This document shows positions 517 to 24,344 of a DNA stretch of 33,550 nucleotides, piece by piece; position 1 is the stretch's first letter; every line of letters begins with the position of its first letter. Both the position numbers and the translations under genes were made by a program. The stretch is from contig SUSZ01000028.1 in assembly GCA_015063165.1 (NCBI GenBank), positions 1-33,550 of the forward strand, given 5' to 3'. This stretch comes from Thermoplasmata archaeon (GTDB lineage: Archaea > Thermoplasmatota > Thermoplasmata > Methanomassiliicoccales > Methanomethylophilaceae). The notes below the pieces were generated by a model. That model ran no database searches and was not told where the DNA came from. It saw only the letters and a list, made by a program, of their open reading frames with translations.

Positions 517-951
517 TCAGGCTTCCTGCCTTTCGCCTAGCCTTGACCTTACCCTCATCAGGACCTTGCCGAGGTTGTTCTCGCCTTCGCCGTTGAAGAC
601 GCCCCAGTAGGTGTCGCCGCACTCGTTGTTGTAAGTGAGCTTCGCCTCGCCGGTAGCGATGAGCTTCTCCGCGAGCTCCGGGTGCTGCGAGAACTTGGCC
701 ATCTGGACCTCCTCCATGACACCTATCCTGACTTCCTCCCAGCCTTTGCGGGGGATCATCTAGTCTGCGAACACTCTGACCCTTGCCGGATCGAGACCTG
801 CGAAGCGTTTCCTGTCTTCTATGTCCGCGCACCTCTGCGCCTGATAGGCCGCTTCGCTGCTTAGAAACTTGAGCCCGTCGAATTCCACTCCTAGGGGGTA
901 CCACTTGTTCAGGAAGAAGTACTCCCCGAAGAACCTCTCTACGTTGTCCAT
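517..951 (-). CDS. NADAR (YbiA-like) family protein with one in-frame UAG codon
   Basis: Read as one frame this is 144 codons, the usual size of a NADAR/YbiA domain. The family includes N-glycosidases acting on riboflavin-pathway intermediates or ADP-ribosylated substrates. The frame is interrupted once, by TAG at 760-762 (codon 64). The first half carries the family start (FFGEYFFLNKWYP, then EFDG and EAAYQAQ). The second half continues without loss into GWEEVRIGVMEEV, AKFSQHPEL, GDTYWGVFNGEGENNLG and the LMRVR end. Neither half could fold alone as the domain. The real stop is TGA. Either UAG is read as an amino acid, possibly pyrrolysine in this lineage, or this is a fresh nonsense mutation. 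No frameshift or second stop is present. It is transcribed away from the importer operon to its right. A decayed copy of its 3' end lies at 21181-21270. Confidence 0.8.
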
Positions 952-1192: not shown

Positions 1193-2539
1193 TTGGATAG
1201 CAAAGTGCTCTATGCGATAATCGCGGTGGCCGTCATCGCCATCGCCGCCGTCGCCGCTTTCACTCTTCTGAACAACGGGGGGAACAGCGACGATGCGGAC
1301 CACACGGGTAAATCGTTCGACGACACGCGTCTCAGAATCTACGGAAACGCCAACGGAGACGATCTCATCGATAAGACCGACCTAAGCACCATCAACTGGA
1401 TCATCAAGTCGAACATGGACAGCGATTCTTCCAAGCACGTCGACTGGGCCAAGGATTACCCTCTTGCCGACGCGAACTACGACGGAAAGGTGGACGACAA
1501 AGATTCCGCTGTCGTCCAGGACATCATCGACAAGAAAAAGACCCGCATGTACTACTACAACAAGTACGAGAGGGTCACCTACGTGAACTATCCCATAAGC
1601 GACAAGATCGGAGCCGAGTATCTTATACTCCAGCTCCTCCCAGCGATCAAATCCTACAGCATGCTCAAAGCGATCGATGACACCACCCCAAGCATCTACA
1701 ACAACGTCTATCCTGGAGTGGACAAGATGCCCGTCATGGGGACCTGGAGGGAGATCACCATCGAGAGCCTCACCGACCTCTACAACAAGGGGACAATCGG
1801 GACATTCATGCAGTGGACCGGCGGACAGAACGTGGACTACATATGGGACAAAGCGGTGGCTTCCGGCCTCTCCGAGAAGATGTCCTTCGTGATAGTGCCC
1901 TGTCAGGGCCCTGACGTCATCCAGGGGGTCCTGGAGCTCGCCTGCATGCTCGGAAACCAGAGCCTCTCGGACGACTACAGGAAGTGGTACGACAGCGCCA
2001 TGGAAAAGCTTGATTCCATCGAGGGCAAGATCGCCGGCGGAAAGAAGACCGTCACCGCGGTCAGGTGCTACAACGACAAGGTGGGCTCCATGGCGGCCTT
2101 CGGATCCTCCCAGGGACCCGCCCTCTGGTTCAACAAGGTCATCAAATTCCAGCCCGATTACGTCGGCAAGACCAACTTCACCACCATTGGGTCAGTCGAG
2201 AACTTCGTCTCGTCCGCTACCGACGAGGTCATCGTCATGTTCCAAAAGAACTGCGACTGGAGCGAGTTCAACGACCTGGTGGACAGCTATCTCACCGCTG
2301 TCTACGGGACCACGGAACAGTTCAAGCACGAGAGGATGTACGCCATAGACTTCGAGATCATGCCGTTCGCGGCCGGTCCCGCAGGATGCTACATCCTCGC
2401 CTCATACCTCTACCCAGAGCTGTTCAAGATGGACGAGGCCCTCGACTTCCTGCAGGTCTATCTGGATGACTTCGCCGTGAGGAGCGGCGCGAACGCACGT
2501 CAGGGTTACACCTACACGGGACCCGGATACAGCAGCTGA
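1193..2539 (+). CDS. ABC importer substrate-binding protein with dockerin-like domain (operon 1)
   Basis: Likely the extracellular binding protein of a FecBCD/BtuFCD-type importer for an iron chelate, heme or corrinoid; the ligand cannot be told from sequence. Residues 1-25 are a hydrophobic N-terminal anchor. Residues about 50-115 hold two dockerin-like calcium loops (NANGDDLIDKTDL and DANYDGKVDDKDS), followed by the binding domain to residue 448. I take TTG at 1193 as start because AGGTGA lies just upstream and the paralogue at 22950-24344 begins with the same pattern (M-D-N-K, then the hydrophobic stretch). The permease and ATPase follow 4 bases apart each, so the three form one operon. 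The dockerin fusion is unusual for a transporter component; I do not see a cohesin in the window. Confidence 0.85.
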   Translation: MDSKVLYAIIAVAVIAIAAVAAFTLLNNGGNSDDADHTGKSFDDTRLRIYGNANGDDLIDKTDLSTINWIIKSNMDSDSSKHVDWAKDYPLADANYDGKVDDKDSAVVQDIIDKKKTRMYYYNKYERVTYVNYPISDKIGAEYLILQLLPAIKSYSMLKAIDDTTPSIYNNVYPGVDKMPVMGTWREITIESLTDLYNKGTIGTFMQWTGGQNVDYIWDKAVASGLSEKMSFVIVPCQGPDVIQGVLELACMLGNQSLSDDYRKWYDSAMEKLDSIEGKIAGGKKTVTAVRCYNDKVGSMAAFGSSQGPALWFNKVIKFQPDYVGKTNFTTIGSVENFVSSATDEVIVMFQKNCDWSEFNDLVDSYLTAVYGTTEQFKHERMYAIDFEIMPFAAGPAGCYILASYLYPELFKMDEALDFLQVYLDDFAVRSGANARQGYTYTGPGYSS

Positions 2540-2543
2540 TAAC

Positions 2544-3674
2544 ATGGAAGAAGGGCAGGCCGGCAGGATTGATTCGGCAAAGAGAGCAGCGGAGCTGTGG
2601 GCAGCGGAGGACGATTTGGGCTCGGAAGAGTCCAAGAAAGCTGTCAACGACTACCGCGTCTCCGAGATGCGCAAGCTCGTGTTCACGTTCGCATGCGTGG
2701 TAGCGGCGGTGATAGTCGCCGGCCTGTCCATAATATACGGAACCATGAACCTGGGGTTCTTGGAGTGCTACGAGATAATATGGGACCATCTCACCGGCAA
2801 CATACAGGACAAGCTTCTGGACTACATCGTGGTGCAGGAGCGTCTTCCCAGAGTGGTGGCGGCTTTGGTGACGGGGGCGGGACTCGCCGTAGCCGGATGC
2901 GTCATGCAGTCGGTTCTCAAGAACCCGCTGGCTGATCCTTACACGACAGGGATATCTTCCGGTGCCGGGTTCGGGGCCACGCTGGCCATAACCCTCGGGG
3001 TGTCCATCGTCGGAGGGAACTACGCTATCGTGGTGAACGCCTTCGTGTTCGCCCTCGTCCCCATGGCGGTCATGCTCGCCGTCGGAAAGCTGAAGGGGGC
3101 GTCGCCTACCATGATGATCATGGCTGGGATCGCCATCATGTTCATCTTCAACTCTTTCACGACCGTTCTGAAGCTGCATGCCGACCCGGACGCCCTCGCT
3201 CTGCTGTACCAGTGGACCGTGGGGACGGTGTCCGACTGCTCATGGACGGATATCCCCCTGATGGGCGCGGTCGTCGTCGCAGGGACGTTCGTCACCCAGG
3301 TGCTGTCCCGGAAGCTGAACGTTCTGGCTACCGGGGATGACAGCGCCAAGGCCATGGGCCTCAACGTGGAGAACATGAGGATTATGCTCCTGCTGCTGAT
3401 ATCGCTCATGGTCGCGACCGTGGTGAGCTTCACCGGACTCATAGGATTTGTAGGGCTGGTGGCTCCTCATGTATGCAGGATATTCGTCGGCGCGGACAAC
3501 AGGTATCTGGTGCTGTCGTCGGCGATGTTCGGGGCCGTCCTGCTGGAGGTAGCCGACCTCATCGGAAGGACCGTCATAGCTCCTGCGACACTGCAGGTCG
3601 GAGTCGTGACCGCGTTCATAGGAGGACCGATGTTCCTGTACCTCATCATGAGGCAGAAGAGGTCGTCGTGGTGA
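2544..3674 (+). CDS. ABC importer permease, FecCD/BtuC family (operon 1)
   Basis: Membrane permease of the importer, 376 residues with many hydrophobic helices. Family landmarks are clear: GAGLAVAGCVMQSVLKNPLA near residue 113, GLIGFVGLVAPH near 300, and the conserved end with GVVTAFIGGPMF. The first 45 residues are a charged cytoplasmic extension before the first helix, longer than in many relatives, so a later start is possible. It begins 4 bases after the binding protein stop and ends 4 bases before the ATPase, which implies translational coupling. The second copy is at 25123-26193. Confidence 0.9.
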   Translation: MEEGQAGRIDSAKRAAELWAAEDDLGSEESKKAVNDYRVSEMRKLVFTFACVVAAVIVAGLSIIYGTMNLGFLECYEIIWDHLTGNIQDKLLDYIVVQERLPRVVAALVTGAGLAVAGCVMQSVLKNPLADPYTTGISSGAGFGATLAITLGVSIVGGNYAIVVNAFVFALVPMAVMLAVGKLKGASPTMMIMAGIAIMFIFNSFTTVLKLHADPDALALLYQWTVGTVSDCSWTDIPLMGAVVVAGTFVTQVLSRKLNVLATGDDSAKAMGLNVENMRIMLLLLISLMVATVVSFTGLIGFVGLVAPHVCRIFVGADNRYLVLSSAMFGAVLLEVADLIGRTVIAPATLQVGVVTAFIGGPMFLYLIMRQKRSSW

Positions 3675-3678
3675 TATC

Positions 3679-4452
3679 ATGAGGATCGACATAGAGAATA
3701 TGGACGCTGGATACGGAGACGAGAGGATCCTTCAAGGCATCGACCTTCATCTGGAAGGCCCCGGGCTGACCTGTATCATAGGGCCGAACGGGGTCGGCAA
3801 ATCCACTCTGGTGAAATGCATCAACAGGCTCCTGGACCCCATATCGGGGAAGGTCAGCATCAACGGGAGGGACATAAAGGAGATGACGAGGAGGGAGATC
3901 GCGGAGACTGTCGCATACGTCCCGGTTCAGTCGGAGGACATCTTCGCCATGCCCGTCTTCGACACCGTCCTGATAGGTAGGGCCAACAAGTCCAAGTGGA
4001 AGACGAGCCCAGAGGACGTGGTCAAGGTGAAGAAGGCGCTGGAGGTCATGGGGATCTCGGATCTGTCCAACCGTCATTTCAACGAGCTGTCGGCGGGACA
4101 GCACCAGATGGTGGCCATCGCCCGCGGACTGGTCCAGGAGTCCGAGATCCTCGTCCTGGACGAGCCCACGGCCAACCTGGACATCAGGCACCAGGTGTTC
4201 GTCACCTCCCTGATGCACGAGATAGCCGTTTCCAAAGGAGTCATGGTGGTCATGATCAGCCACAACCTCAATATCGCGGCCATGTTCGCGGACCGCGTGG
4301 TGCTCATGTCCAAGCCAGGGGTCGTCAAGGAGGTCGGCACCGCGGCGGAGGTCGTCACGGCGGAGAACATCTCCGAGGTCTATGACATCGACTGCGAGAT
4401 CGTGGACCATCAGGGCAGGCCCGTCATCCTTCTGGACAGAAACCTATCATAA
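3679..4452 (+). CDS. ABC importer ATPase, FecE/BtuD family (operon 1)
   Basis: Cytoplasmic ATPase that powers the importer, 257 residues, normal for the family. Walker A is GPNGVGKS at residues 35-42, the ABC signature is LSAGQ around 137-141, Walker B is ILVLDEPTANLD, and the switch histidine is in ISHNLN. ATG at 3679 follows GGTGATAT and sits 4 bases after the permease stop. It is the last gene of the operon. A separate TATA box lies between it and the next gene. Confidence 0.93.
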   Translation: MRIDIENMDAGYGDERILQGIDLHLEGPGLTCIIGPNGVGKSTLVKCINRLLDPISGKVSINGRDIKEMTRREIAETVAYVPVQSEDIFAMPVFDTVLIGRANKSKWKTSPEDVVKVKKALEVMGISDLSNRHFNELSAGQHQMVAIARGLVQESEILVLDEPTANLDIRHQVFVTSLMHEIAVSKGVMVVMISHNLNIAAMFADRVVLMSKPGVVKEVGTAAEVVTAENISEVYDIDCEIVDHQGRPVILLDRNLS

Positions 4453-20992: not shown

Positions 20993-21180
20993 GATTTGAA
21001 TTCCCAGTCCTGGTTTCAGCGACCGGGATGCCATAGTTGAACGGTGGCGCATTTCTGAATCGAATGATCGGACGATGGAACGCGCCGCTAGGTTCACATC
21101 TTGAACAATCCCGTTCCTGCAACCGTGTTCGGTAAATCTCATTCTGCATCATTAGGGGTTCGTCTCTCGGTCACCTTGTT

Positions 21181-21270
21181 CTCACCCTTTAGGACCTAGC
21201 TGAGGTTGTTCTTGCCTCGCCGTTGAAGACTCTCCGGTATCTGTCGCCGCATTGTTGTTGTAGGTAGACA
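21181..21270 (-). pseudogene. Decayed fragment of a NADAR gene
   Basis: About 90 bases match the 3' part of the NADAR gene at 545-640, including shared runs such as GAGGTTGTTCT, TCGCCGTTGAAGAC, TGTCGCCGCA and GTTGTTGTA. Small deletions break the frame. The upstream part of the gene is missing. This is a relic of a duplication or of a second NADAR gene. Confidence 0.7.
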
Positions 21271-22096: not shown

Positions 22097-22891
22097 TTAT
22101 TCTAGAATCGAATCCTCGATCTCGAAGGTCGCGAACATCACCGCCTTCCCTGAAAGCTTCACTCTGTCCCCTTCTATCTGTATCACTATAGTGCCACCAC
22201 GCTCTGAGACCTGACGAGCTACCATCCTGTCCTTCCCCAGCCTCTTCCTCCAGAAGTCGGCCAGGCTGCAGTGCATGGAGCCGCAGACCGGATCCTCGTC
22301 TATCCTGATCTTGGGCCAGAACGCTCTGGATACGAAGTCGAATTCGTCGTAACCGGGCGCGGTGACGAACAATCCTTCGCCGTCGGGAATCCGCTTCACC
22401 TTCCCCATGTCCGGTTTCAGACCGATGACGTCCTCGGCTCTCTCGAGTAAGACTATAGGGTCTCTGTATCCGATAGCGACTTCCATGGGTTCGCATCCTA
22501 TCGCTTCGCCTATCGCTTCAGGAGCGTCGTAGGGCTTTGTCTCGATTAGCGGGAAGTCCATGGTGTACATGTCTCCATCCCTCTCCACGGTCAGCCTCCC
22601 GCTGAGGGTCTGGAACTCCGCCATGTCCTCCTAGGGCTTCACGAGGTTCAGGATCACGAATCCAGCGGCGAGGGTGGCGTGCCCGCAGAGGTCCACCTCT
22701 CCTCCGGGCGTGAACCATCTCAGGTCGTACCTTCCGCCGGATCCGACGGCGAAGGCGGTCTCGGAGAGGTTGTTCTCAATGGCCAGCTTCAGCATGATTT
22801 CGTCCGGGAGCCAGCGTTCCAGGATGCAGACGGCTGCGGGATTACCAGAGAAAGGCCGGTCGGTGAAGGCGTCGACCTGGTACATCTTCAT
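22097..22891 (-). CDS. PhzF-family isomerase with one in-frame UAG codon
   Basis: Read through one TAG (22631-22633, codon 87), this is a 264-residue PhzF/YddE-type protein, close to normal length. The first half has FTDRPFSGNPAAV, the catalytic Glu in NLSETAF (about residue 44) and EVDLCGHATLAAG. The second half, in the same frame and only two codons after the TAG from the next Met, has FQTLSGRLTVERDGD, then DPVCGSMHCSLADFW, the partner motif of the active site. The active site is built from both halves, so neither is useful alone. The true stop is TAA. A TATA-like TTTTATCTA at about 22912-22920 lies 25 bases before ATG 22891, so the mRNA is likely leaderless. Read-through as pyrrolysine or a recent nonsense mutation are the two options; there is no other damage. 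Confidence 0.85.
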
Positions 22892-22922
22892 GACAGGCCA
22901 TGCCCTTCGATAGATAAAAGGT

Positions 22923-22939
22923 GGGCGGGGGTTCCGCCC
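22923..22939 (-). terminator. Terminator of the second importer operon
   Basis: On the minus strand GGGCGG-AACCC-CCGCCC is followed by ACCTTTTATC, directly after the binding-protein stop codon. The T-rich tail overlaps the TATA element of the PhzF gene. Confidence 0.65.
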
Positions 22940-22949
22940 TTGGAAGGTC

Positions 22950-24344
22950 TCAAAGCACTCCGAAATCCTTGAAGAAGTTCTCGATCTTGAAGTACTTGTT
23001 GTAGTTCTCGGTCTGGTCGGTGAAGTTCTGGATGAAGTAGTCCATCATCTCCCTGTAATCGACTCCGTTGTTGATGCCAGGATAGAGGACGTCCTGGTAG
23101 AACGCCATCTCGACGATATAGAACGGGCTGTTTCCGCCTTCGCGGGCCATTCCGAGGTAGTGGATGGTCTCGGGGCGGTTCTTCAGGACCTCCGCCCAGC
23201 CGGGGACTCCGACGTCCAGGTCCTTGGAGTTCCTGAGCCCGTCGTGCTCGTTCACGATGAAGTACACTGTGTTGTTCGAGGGGTTGGCGCTATTCATGAG
23301 CACGGTCTCGATCTGCTCCATCGTTAGGCTGTTGTACAGGTTGGGGGTGAGGTCCATGGTGCGGGTGGGACAGTTGACGCCGGCCCAGGTCGCGTGGTAG
23401 AGGTTGGTGTTGTCGCCTCCGGTGATGCTGTAGGTGGACGTTCCGGTGGCGATGAAGTTCCTGGTCATGACGAGGTTCTGCTTCTCCGTCAGGGTGGCCG
23501 CGGCGCTCTTCATCTTGGAGAGGCAGTCGTCATGCCAGGCCAGATACCTGTAGGTCTGGTCCATGTCCCCTTGGAGGAGGTATCCGTACATCAGGATGGA
23601 CCTGTCGATGTTGATGTTGGCGATGCCGTCCCCGTCGCAGGTGTGCTTGAACATGACATCTATGCCCTGGAGCTGCTCGCGGGCGATCTTGTCGGCTTCC
23701 GAGGCGAAGTATCCGGGGACGTACACATCGACCTTCGCCTTGATTATGGCTTCCCAGTCGGGGGAGCTGACGGAACCTGAGGAGGGAACTGTCTGGAACC
23801 TGGAGTTCAGGTAGAGCCAGTTGTTGTTCTTGATCTCGTCGTTGACCATGGCGACCTTGTCCATGAGTCCGGTGGCTTCGGTTGTGTAGACCCCGCTGCA
23901 GTAGCTGATGGCGATGGTCCTGACGGGCCAGGAGACCTTCTGAATGGTCGTGTAGTCGTCGATGTAGTACACGTCGAGCTTGGTATCCTTTCCAGCATCG
24001 ATGATGCTCCTGAGGTAGTCTACGTCCGCGGAATCGATCTTTCCGTCGGCGTTGGTGTCGCAGAGCACGGTGGTCTTGTTCTTGCCGGAGATGACGCCCT
24101 GGATGTAGGTCACATCGGCGGAGTCAATGCGGTCGTCTTCGTTCGCGTTCCCGAAGACCCAGAGCCTGGAGGAGGACGAGGGGAGCTTCTTGGTCATGTC
24201 CTCTCCGATGCGCTTTCCAGGGTCGGATGTCGGCGTGTCTTCCTTCTTGTCGTCGTTGCCGCCGTTGCTCATCAGCGCGTACGCCGCGACTCCGGCTATG
24301 ACGACGATGGCGACCAGAAGTATTGCGATGATCTTGTTGTCCAT
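22950..24344 (-). CDS. ABC importer substrate-binding protein with dockerin-like domain (operon 2)
   Basis: A 464-residue paralogue of the binding protein at 1193-2539. It has a hydrophobic N-terminal anchor (residues about 5-24), a Ser/Thr/Asp-rich linker, two dockerin-like calcium loops (NANEDDRIDSADV at about 66-78 and DTNADGKIDSADV at 97-109) and a binding domain to the C-terminus. I choose ATG 24344 because it aligns with the M-D-S-K start of the paralogue; a GTG at 24353 overlaps the ATPase stop (GTGA) and is also possible. It is the last gene of its operon, the reverse of operon 1. The binding domains of the two proteins are clearly diverged, which suggests different ligands. Confidence 0.87.
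   Translation of the reverse strand: MDNKIIAILLVAIVVIAGVAAYALMSNGGNDDKKEDTPTSDPGKRIGEDMTKKLPSSSSRLWVFGNANEDDRIDSADVTYIQGVISGKNKTTVLCDTNADGKIDSADVDYLRSIIDAGKDTKLDVYYIDDYTTIQKVSWPVRTIAISYCSGVYTTEATGLMDKVAMVNDEIKNNNWLYLNSRFQTVPSSGSVSSPDWEAIIKAKVDVYVPGYFASEADKIAREQLQGIDVMFKHTCDGDGIANINIDRSILMYGYLLQGDMDQTYRYLAWHDDCLSKMKSAAATLTEKQNLVMTRNFIATGTSTYSITGGDNTNLYHATWAGVNCPTRTMDLTPNLYNSLTMEQIETVLMNSANPSNNTVYFIVNEHDGLRNSKDLDVGVPGWAEVLKNRPETIHYLGMAREGGNSPFYIVEMAFYQDVLYPGINNGVDYREMMDYFIQNFTDQTENYNKYFKIENFFKDFGVL

Follow-up and report, generated by a model that had tools for sequence, protein, structure and literature searches.

The NADAR antitoxins associated with DarT1 have been demonstrated to de-ADP-ribosylate guanine, and the residue roles used here (catalysis, the lysine and the pyrophosphate contact) are those given by Schuller et al. 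(PMC11543638). In that work, the catalytic acidic residue is E125 in the Phytophthora NADAR, equivalent to D171 of the E. coli C7 NADAR, and the essential lysine is K50, equivalent to K95, for which the K95R variant was active in vitro but gave no rescue (PMC11543638). A functional need for pyrrolysine (Pyl) has been established for the methylamine methyltransferases, other occurrences being described as scattered or treated as neutral in the accessible parts of the sources (PMC8211752, PMC4153887). In MttB, a tyrosine has been proposed to protonate the pyrroline imine through water (PMC9842639).

The gene described here, denoted Pyl-NADAR, lies in a stretch of 33,550 nucleotides (the window) and differs in several respects from each of these systems. 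Its closest relatives found are the phage-type NADARs (for example those of Bacillus phages AR9/PBS1 and SPbeta-like phages), which have the same length, align without gaps around the site and share approximately 40% identity, but which carry a sense codon at position 64 together with an invariant catalytic Glu, Lys40 and Asn16, all absent from the Pyl clade. The fold is common to the YbiA subfamily (E. coli YbiA and Phytophthora NADAR), whereas key ligand residues are replaced, and the profile for the YbiA riboflavin-intermediate N-glycosidase (NCBIfam TIGR02464) scores 60.6 bits, short of its cut-off of 73.7. The DarT1-associated antitoxins belong to the same superfamily, but their catalytic Asp/Glu position is a Tyr in Pyl-NADAR; no DarT-like gene was recognised among the neighbouring genes examined. 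Pyl-NADAR shares a conserved in-frame UAG with MtmB, MtbB and MttB, although their fold is unrelated and no corrinoid partner is known for it. The scattered Pyl proteins of M. alvus and ISO4-H5, and also Methanosarcina Thg1, are, as far as the accessible portions of the sources go, likewise non-methyltransferases with an in-frame UAG; many such proteins have TAG-free homologues there, whereas no TAG-free orthologue of Pyl-NADAR was found. The features of the window are as follows.

517..951, minus strand: coding region of Pyl-NADAR (144 codons, UAG64 among them; translation; read-through Pfam NADAR match; eight orthologous copies)
760..762, minus strand: codon 64, TAG, inferred to be read as pyrrolysine (translation; TAG in 8/8 copies)
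763..951, minus strand: codons 1–63, N-terminal half, with E33, R40 and D63 (dN well below dS; alignment)
520..759, minus strand: codons 65–144, C-terminal half, with W71, Y107, D113 and W116 (purifying selection; alignment)
1193-2539, plus strand: protein of 448 aa, secreted or anchored in the membrane, with no family match (divergent neighbour, context)
2544-3674, plus strand: FecCD-type permease (divergent neighbour, context)
3679-4452, plus strand: ABC ATPase (divergent neighbour, context; the neighbour block is 1193..4452)
21174..21265, minus strand: decayed fragment left by a third Pyl-NADAR copy (81% identical across 96 alignment columns)
22097..22960, minus strand: PhzF-like control gene containing a single in-frame TAG (Pfam PF02567, 8.8e-55)

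The Pyl-NADAR gene runs from an ATG at 951 to a TGA stop at 517-519, and its sole in-frame TAG is codon 64 (CTA on the plus strand). The Pfam NADAR family (PF08719) matches the read-through protein over residues 11–138, spanning the TAG, with 77 bits (E=2.6e-21) against a curated cut-off of 35.1 bits. An earlier note on this DNA had described a NADAR gene at 517-951 interrupted by one TAG at 760-762, without naming the strand, and a family domain formed only by reading through it; both descriptions are confirmed, on the minus strand. Its statement that the flanks, VFAD and MIPRKGWEEV, join smoothly in the family pattern stands in part: they are ungapped relative to phage-type NADARs, but the dipeptide just before codon 64 is A-D rather than the usual G-[R/K], so that the pattern is partly lost. 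The decayed NADAR relic that it had reported is real, and matches part of the Pyl-NADAR gene with four gap bases in three places. This fragmentary, frameshifted copy provides a picture of decay, which the gene at 517-951 does not resemble.

Searched by profile, 31 genomes from the genus and 147 from the order yielded eight full-length copies, distributed over seven species of a rumen Methanomethylophilaceae genus. Two of them are in the source genome (2.28 Mb, 67 contigs), the second being intact and located on another contig. All eight contain a single TAG, always at codon 64, and no version with a sense codon at this position was found among the genomes searched. Overall invariance is high within the clade and, as the copies share one ancestor, the conservation of the TAG represents one origin retained and not eight independent events. 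Only 7 of the 31 species of the genus have the gene, several genomes being incomplete. Five named records match the clade, all of which are metagenome assemblies; three bear the labels sheep, water buffalo and roe deer rumen, and the taxon labels read Methanomethylophilaceae, Thermoplasmata or Methanomassiliicoccaceae archaeon. A candidate TAG-free orthologue in genome G029 was rejected, as it is a different, YbiA-like NADAR fragment with an internal deletion (contig L012, frame 1, residues ~480-640) in a species without Pyl-NADAR; the remaining profile matches included one distant canonical NADAR, in genome G101.

A FastTree phylogeny recovers the Pyl clade as monophyletic with a support of 1.0 and places it among phage-type NADARs, which makes a phage-like source plausible. 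Its patchy presence, together with the extra copy and the relic, points to turnover and possibly to exchange inside the genus. A clade-specific query retrieved no relative from IMG/VR, and none of the 56 phage-type NADARs compared, obtained with a wider IMG/VR query, has a TAG at position 64. Separately, a phage NADAR on a viral contig (L088:2001-2417) has a stop codon at the otherwise invariant Trp71 position, possibly reflecting a recoded phage.

Decoding of UAG as pyrrolysine is described for the same order (PMC3941956, and PMC4153887 in its accessible part). The source genome carries, on contig C34, a tRNA-Pyl with anticodon CTA and pylS (TIGR02367, 255 bits), followed by reading frames named pylB, pylC and pylD from their translations alone; the cluster adjoins corrinoid-protein and methyltransferase frames. 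The genome thus meets the host criterion for a pyrrolysine-containing protein, a pylTSBCD cluster with tRNA-Pyl(CUA). In the 260 kb sampled, which is not the whole genome, TAG terminates 17 of 146 long open reading frames; for five of these the next stop follows within 16 codons, and some of the others are possibly chance frames. Translation is inferred without protein-level proof, but we consider it very likely that the gene works and that its UAG64 yields pyrrolysine.

The structure was predicted with AlphaFold2 from a 64-sequence alignment, with Lys in place of Pyl (pLDDT 94.9, pTM 0.90), superseding a model from eight sequences (pLDDT 73). Foldseek matched the model to E. coli YbiA (2b3w, TM 0.87) and to the Phytophthora NADAR–ADP-ribose complex (8bau, TM 0.75), and the protein is confidently predicted to adopt a YbiA-like NADAR fold. 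The ligand site was compared between the eight copies of the Pyl clade and the 56 phage-type relatives, with residue numbering carried over through alignments and not checked on coordinates. Residues E33 (E43 in the Phytophthora NADAR), W71 (W89), D113 (D130) and W116 (W133) are kept. In contrast, the catalytic E107 (E125; Glu in all 56 relatives) is Tyr107 and K40 (the essential K50; 56/56) is Arg40 in all eight copies, N16 (56/56) is replaced by Lys, W111 (53/56) by Cys, and R63 (R79, a pyrophosphate contact; Arg or Lys in 49/56) by Asp; Asp63, Tyr107 and Arg40 are each invariant within the clade. The protein therefore lacks both the catalytic acid and the essential Lys expected of an active ADP-ribosyl-guanine hydrolase, and the loss of the acid and of one pyrophosphate Arg makes hydrolysis by the known route unlikely. 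Pyl64 immediately follows D63 at the end of helix 55–64, which in ordinary NADARs bears the Arg that binds pyrophosphate, and the alignment, in the absence of distance data, would place it beside the putative ligand site.

The reading that we favour, with a probability of just under 0.8, is that the gene encodes a full-length NADAR in which Pyl64 is functionally fixed within a ligand site that has been remodelled. Its translation, its substrate and its chemistry are all inferences. That pyrrolysine itself is selected for at position 64 we regard as likely. The principal alternative is neutrality: Pyl64 would be translated, but merely as the outcome of an ancestral AAG (Lys) codon that became TAG and has not reverted, with Pyl serving as a bulky lysine. 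Position 64 is variable in the phage-type relatives and most commonly Lys or Arg (31/56), and Pyl could accordingly stand in for lysine, which counts against the favoured reading, as do the lack of protein-level proof, the single origin of the eight copies, the presence of the gene in few species, the high overall invariance of the clade and the reliance on alignment for the position of Pyl64 near the active site; non-methyltransferase Pyl in the order is usually scattered, to judge from the accessible parts of two reports (PMC4153887, PMC5011839). The window has one such scattered case in its PhzF-like gene. An in-frame TAG is present there, but only in this one of nine genes, the eight relatives in the genus having Asp or Gly at the site, and its pyrrolysine codon is sporadic and probably recent as judged from these comparisons. 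The nitrogenase-like genes of the genus likewise contain only scattered TAGs. Both sets of genes establish sporadic TAG use in this genus, and the Pyl-NADAR TAG is not of that type. At codons with an invariant amino acid, fourfold third bases have changed at 31 of 32 sites among the eight copies, 29 of them by transversion, while the TAG has not reverted in any copy. The residues around the site are also invariant, and several ligand-site residues have changed in the same clade. Neutrality is accordingly possible but improbable. Set against fourfold-site turnover, and with scattered TAG genes as a control, TAG invariance offers a simple genomic test of functional versus accidental pyrrolysine.

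It is also conceivable that UAG64 acts as a regulatory switch reporting methylamine or pyrrolysine status, by which the full protein would be made when pyrrolysine suffices and a 63-residue fragment otherwise. The invariant in-frame UAG and the pyl genes are compatible with this, but a pure switch needs neither a fixed position nor remodelled surrounding residues, and a conserved, PYLIS-like RNA element downstream of the TAG is unsupported (covariation term unfavourable at +1.78; double changes in 4 of 31 pairs); we give the switch very little weight. In pairwise comparisons, dN falls far short of dS before as well as after the TAG, which places the downstream region under coding constraint. 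A pseudogene or an assembly error, in which the TAG would be either a true early stop or a mistake of sequencing, has a precedent in the decayed copy of the window but can be rejected with near certainty, because the same TAG recurs in eight copies from separate assemblies with otherwise intact frames, selection past it is purifying, tRNA-Pyl is present and the true relic is fragmentary and frameshifted. The earlier note's view of an intact recoded gene is thereby supported, and two of the three refuting conditions that it had named, a sense codon at the site in orthologues and a lack of pyl genes, did not hold. The evidence extends further than read-through, as the TAG is fixed in the clade and the ligand site has been remodelled along with it.

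Under the favoured reading of a functionally fixed Pyl64, tRNA-Pyl and PylS would decode UAG64 to give a 144-residue NADAR-fold protein, and selection would hold Pyl64 within a subset of the rumen methanogen genus. Key residues of the ligand site have changed jointly (N16K, K40R, R63D, E107Y and W111C), and the protein may bind a nucleotide- or ADP-ribose-like ligand, an inference for which there are no binding data. The pyrroline imine, perhaps aided by Tyr107 or Asp63, could then provide electrophilic or binding chemistry absent from ordinary NADARs. The electrophilic nature of the imine, the imine-assisting Tyr of MttB, which has a counterpart in the invariant Tyr107, and the location of Tyr107 at the place of the catalytic Glu make a site composed of Pyl64 with Tyr107 or Asp63 the most specific hypothesis; by analogy only, and without distances, such a reactive or ligand-capturing site is proposed with low confidence. 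We judge it evenly balanced whether Pyl-NADAR represents a protein family, beyond the methylamine methyltransferases, that functionally requires pyrrolysine; it would then be an enzyme or sensor of NADAR fold with an ADP-ribose-type site rebuilt around the pyrroline imine, partnered by Tyr107 or Asp63. If so, this small protein of one domain, with its invariant Pyl beside altered catalytic positions, would allow a direct test of whether nature employs pyrrolysine in further kinds of chemistry.

Open-literature text searches found no relevant report of pyrrolysine together with NADAR or YbiA. A recent archaeal study reportedly read all TAG codons as pyrrolysine and may list such proteins, so the novelty of a pyrrolysine NADAR is not certain. 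In the accessible parts of two further reports, NADAR is not named among the listed Pyl proteins, which include unnamed hypothetical proteins (PMC4153887, PMC5011839).

As in the neighbour block, an ABC cassette also adjoins the Pyl-NADAR gene at L027, L030 and L031, and in some species FecCD-type ABC cassettes and nitrogenase-like NifHD/NifK-like genes both do so. We infer no function from the neighbourhood, because nitrogenase-like genes, of which the genus has many related ones, are widespread in it without Pyl-NADAR and because different genes flank the second copy and the one at L029. At L027:6530-9783 (minus strand) and L030:1664-5117 (plus strand), a NifH–NifD fusion and a second nitrogenase-component-1-like protein are encoded beside the NADAR and FecCD-type ABC genes. 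Beside the second NADAR copy, a GNAT acetyltransferase-like frame (L003:6512-7398, minus strand) contains a TAG near its 3′ end, past which the codons continue.
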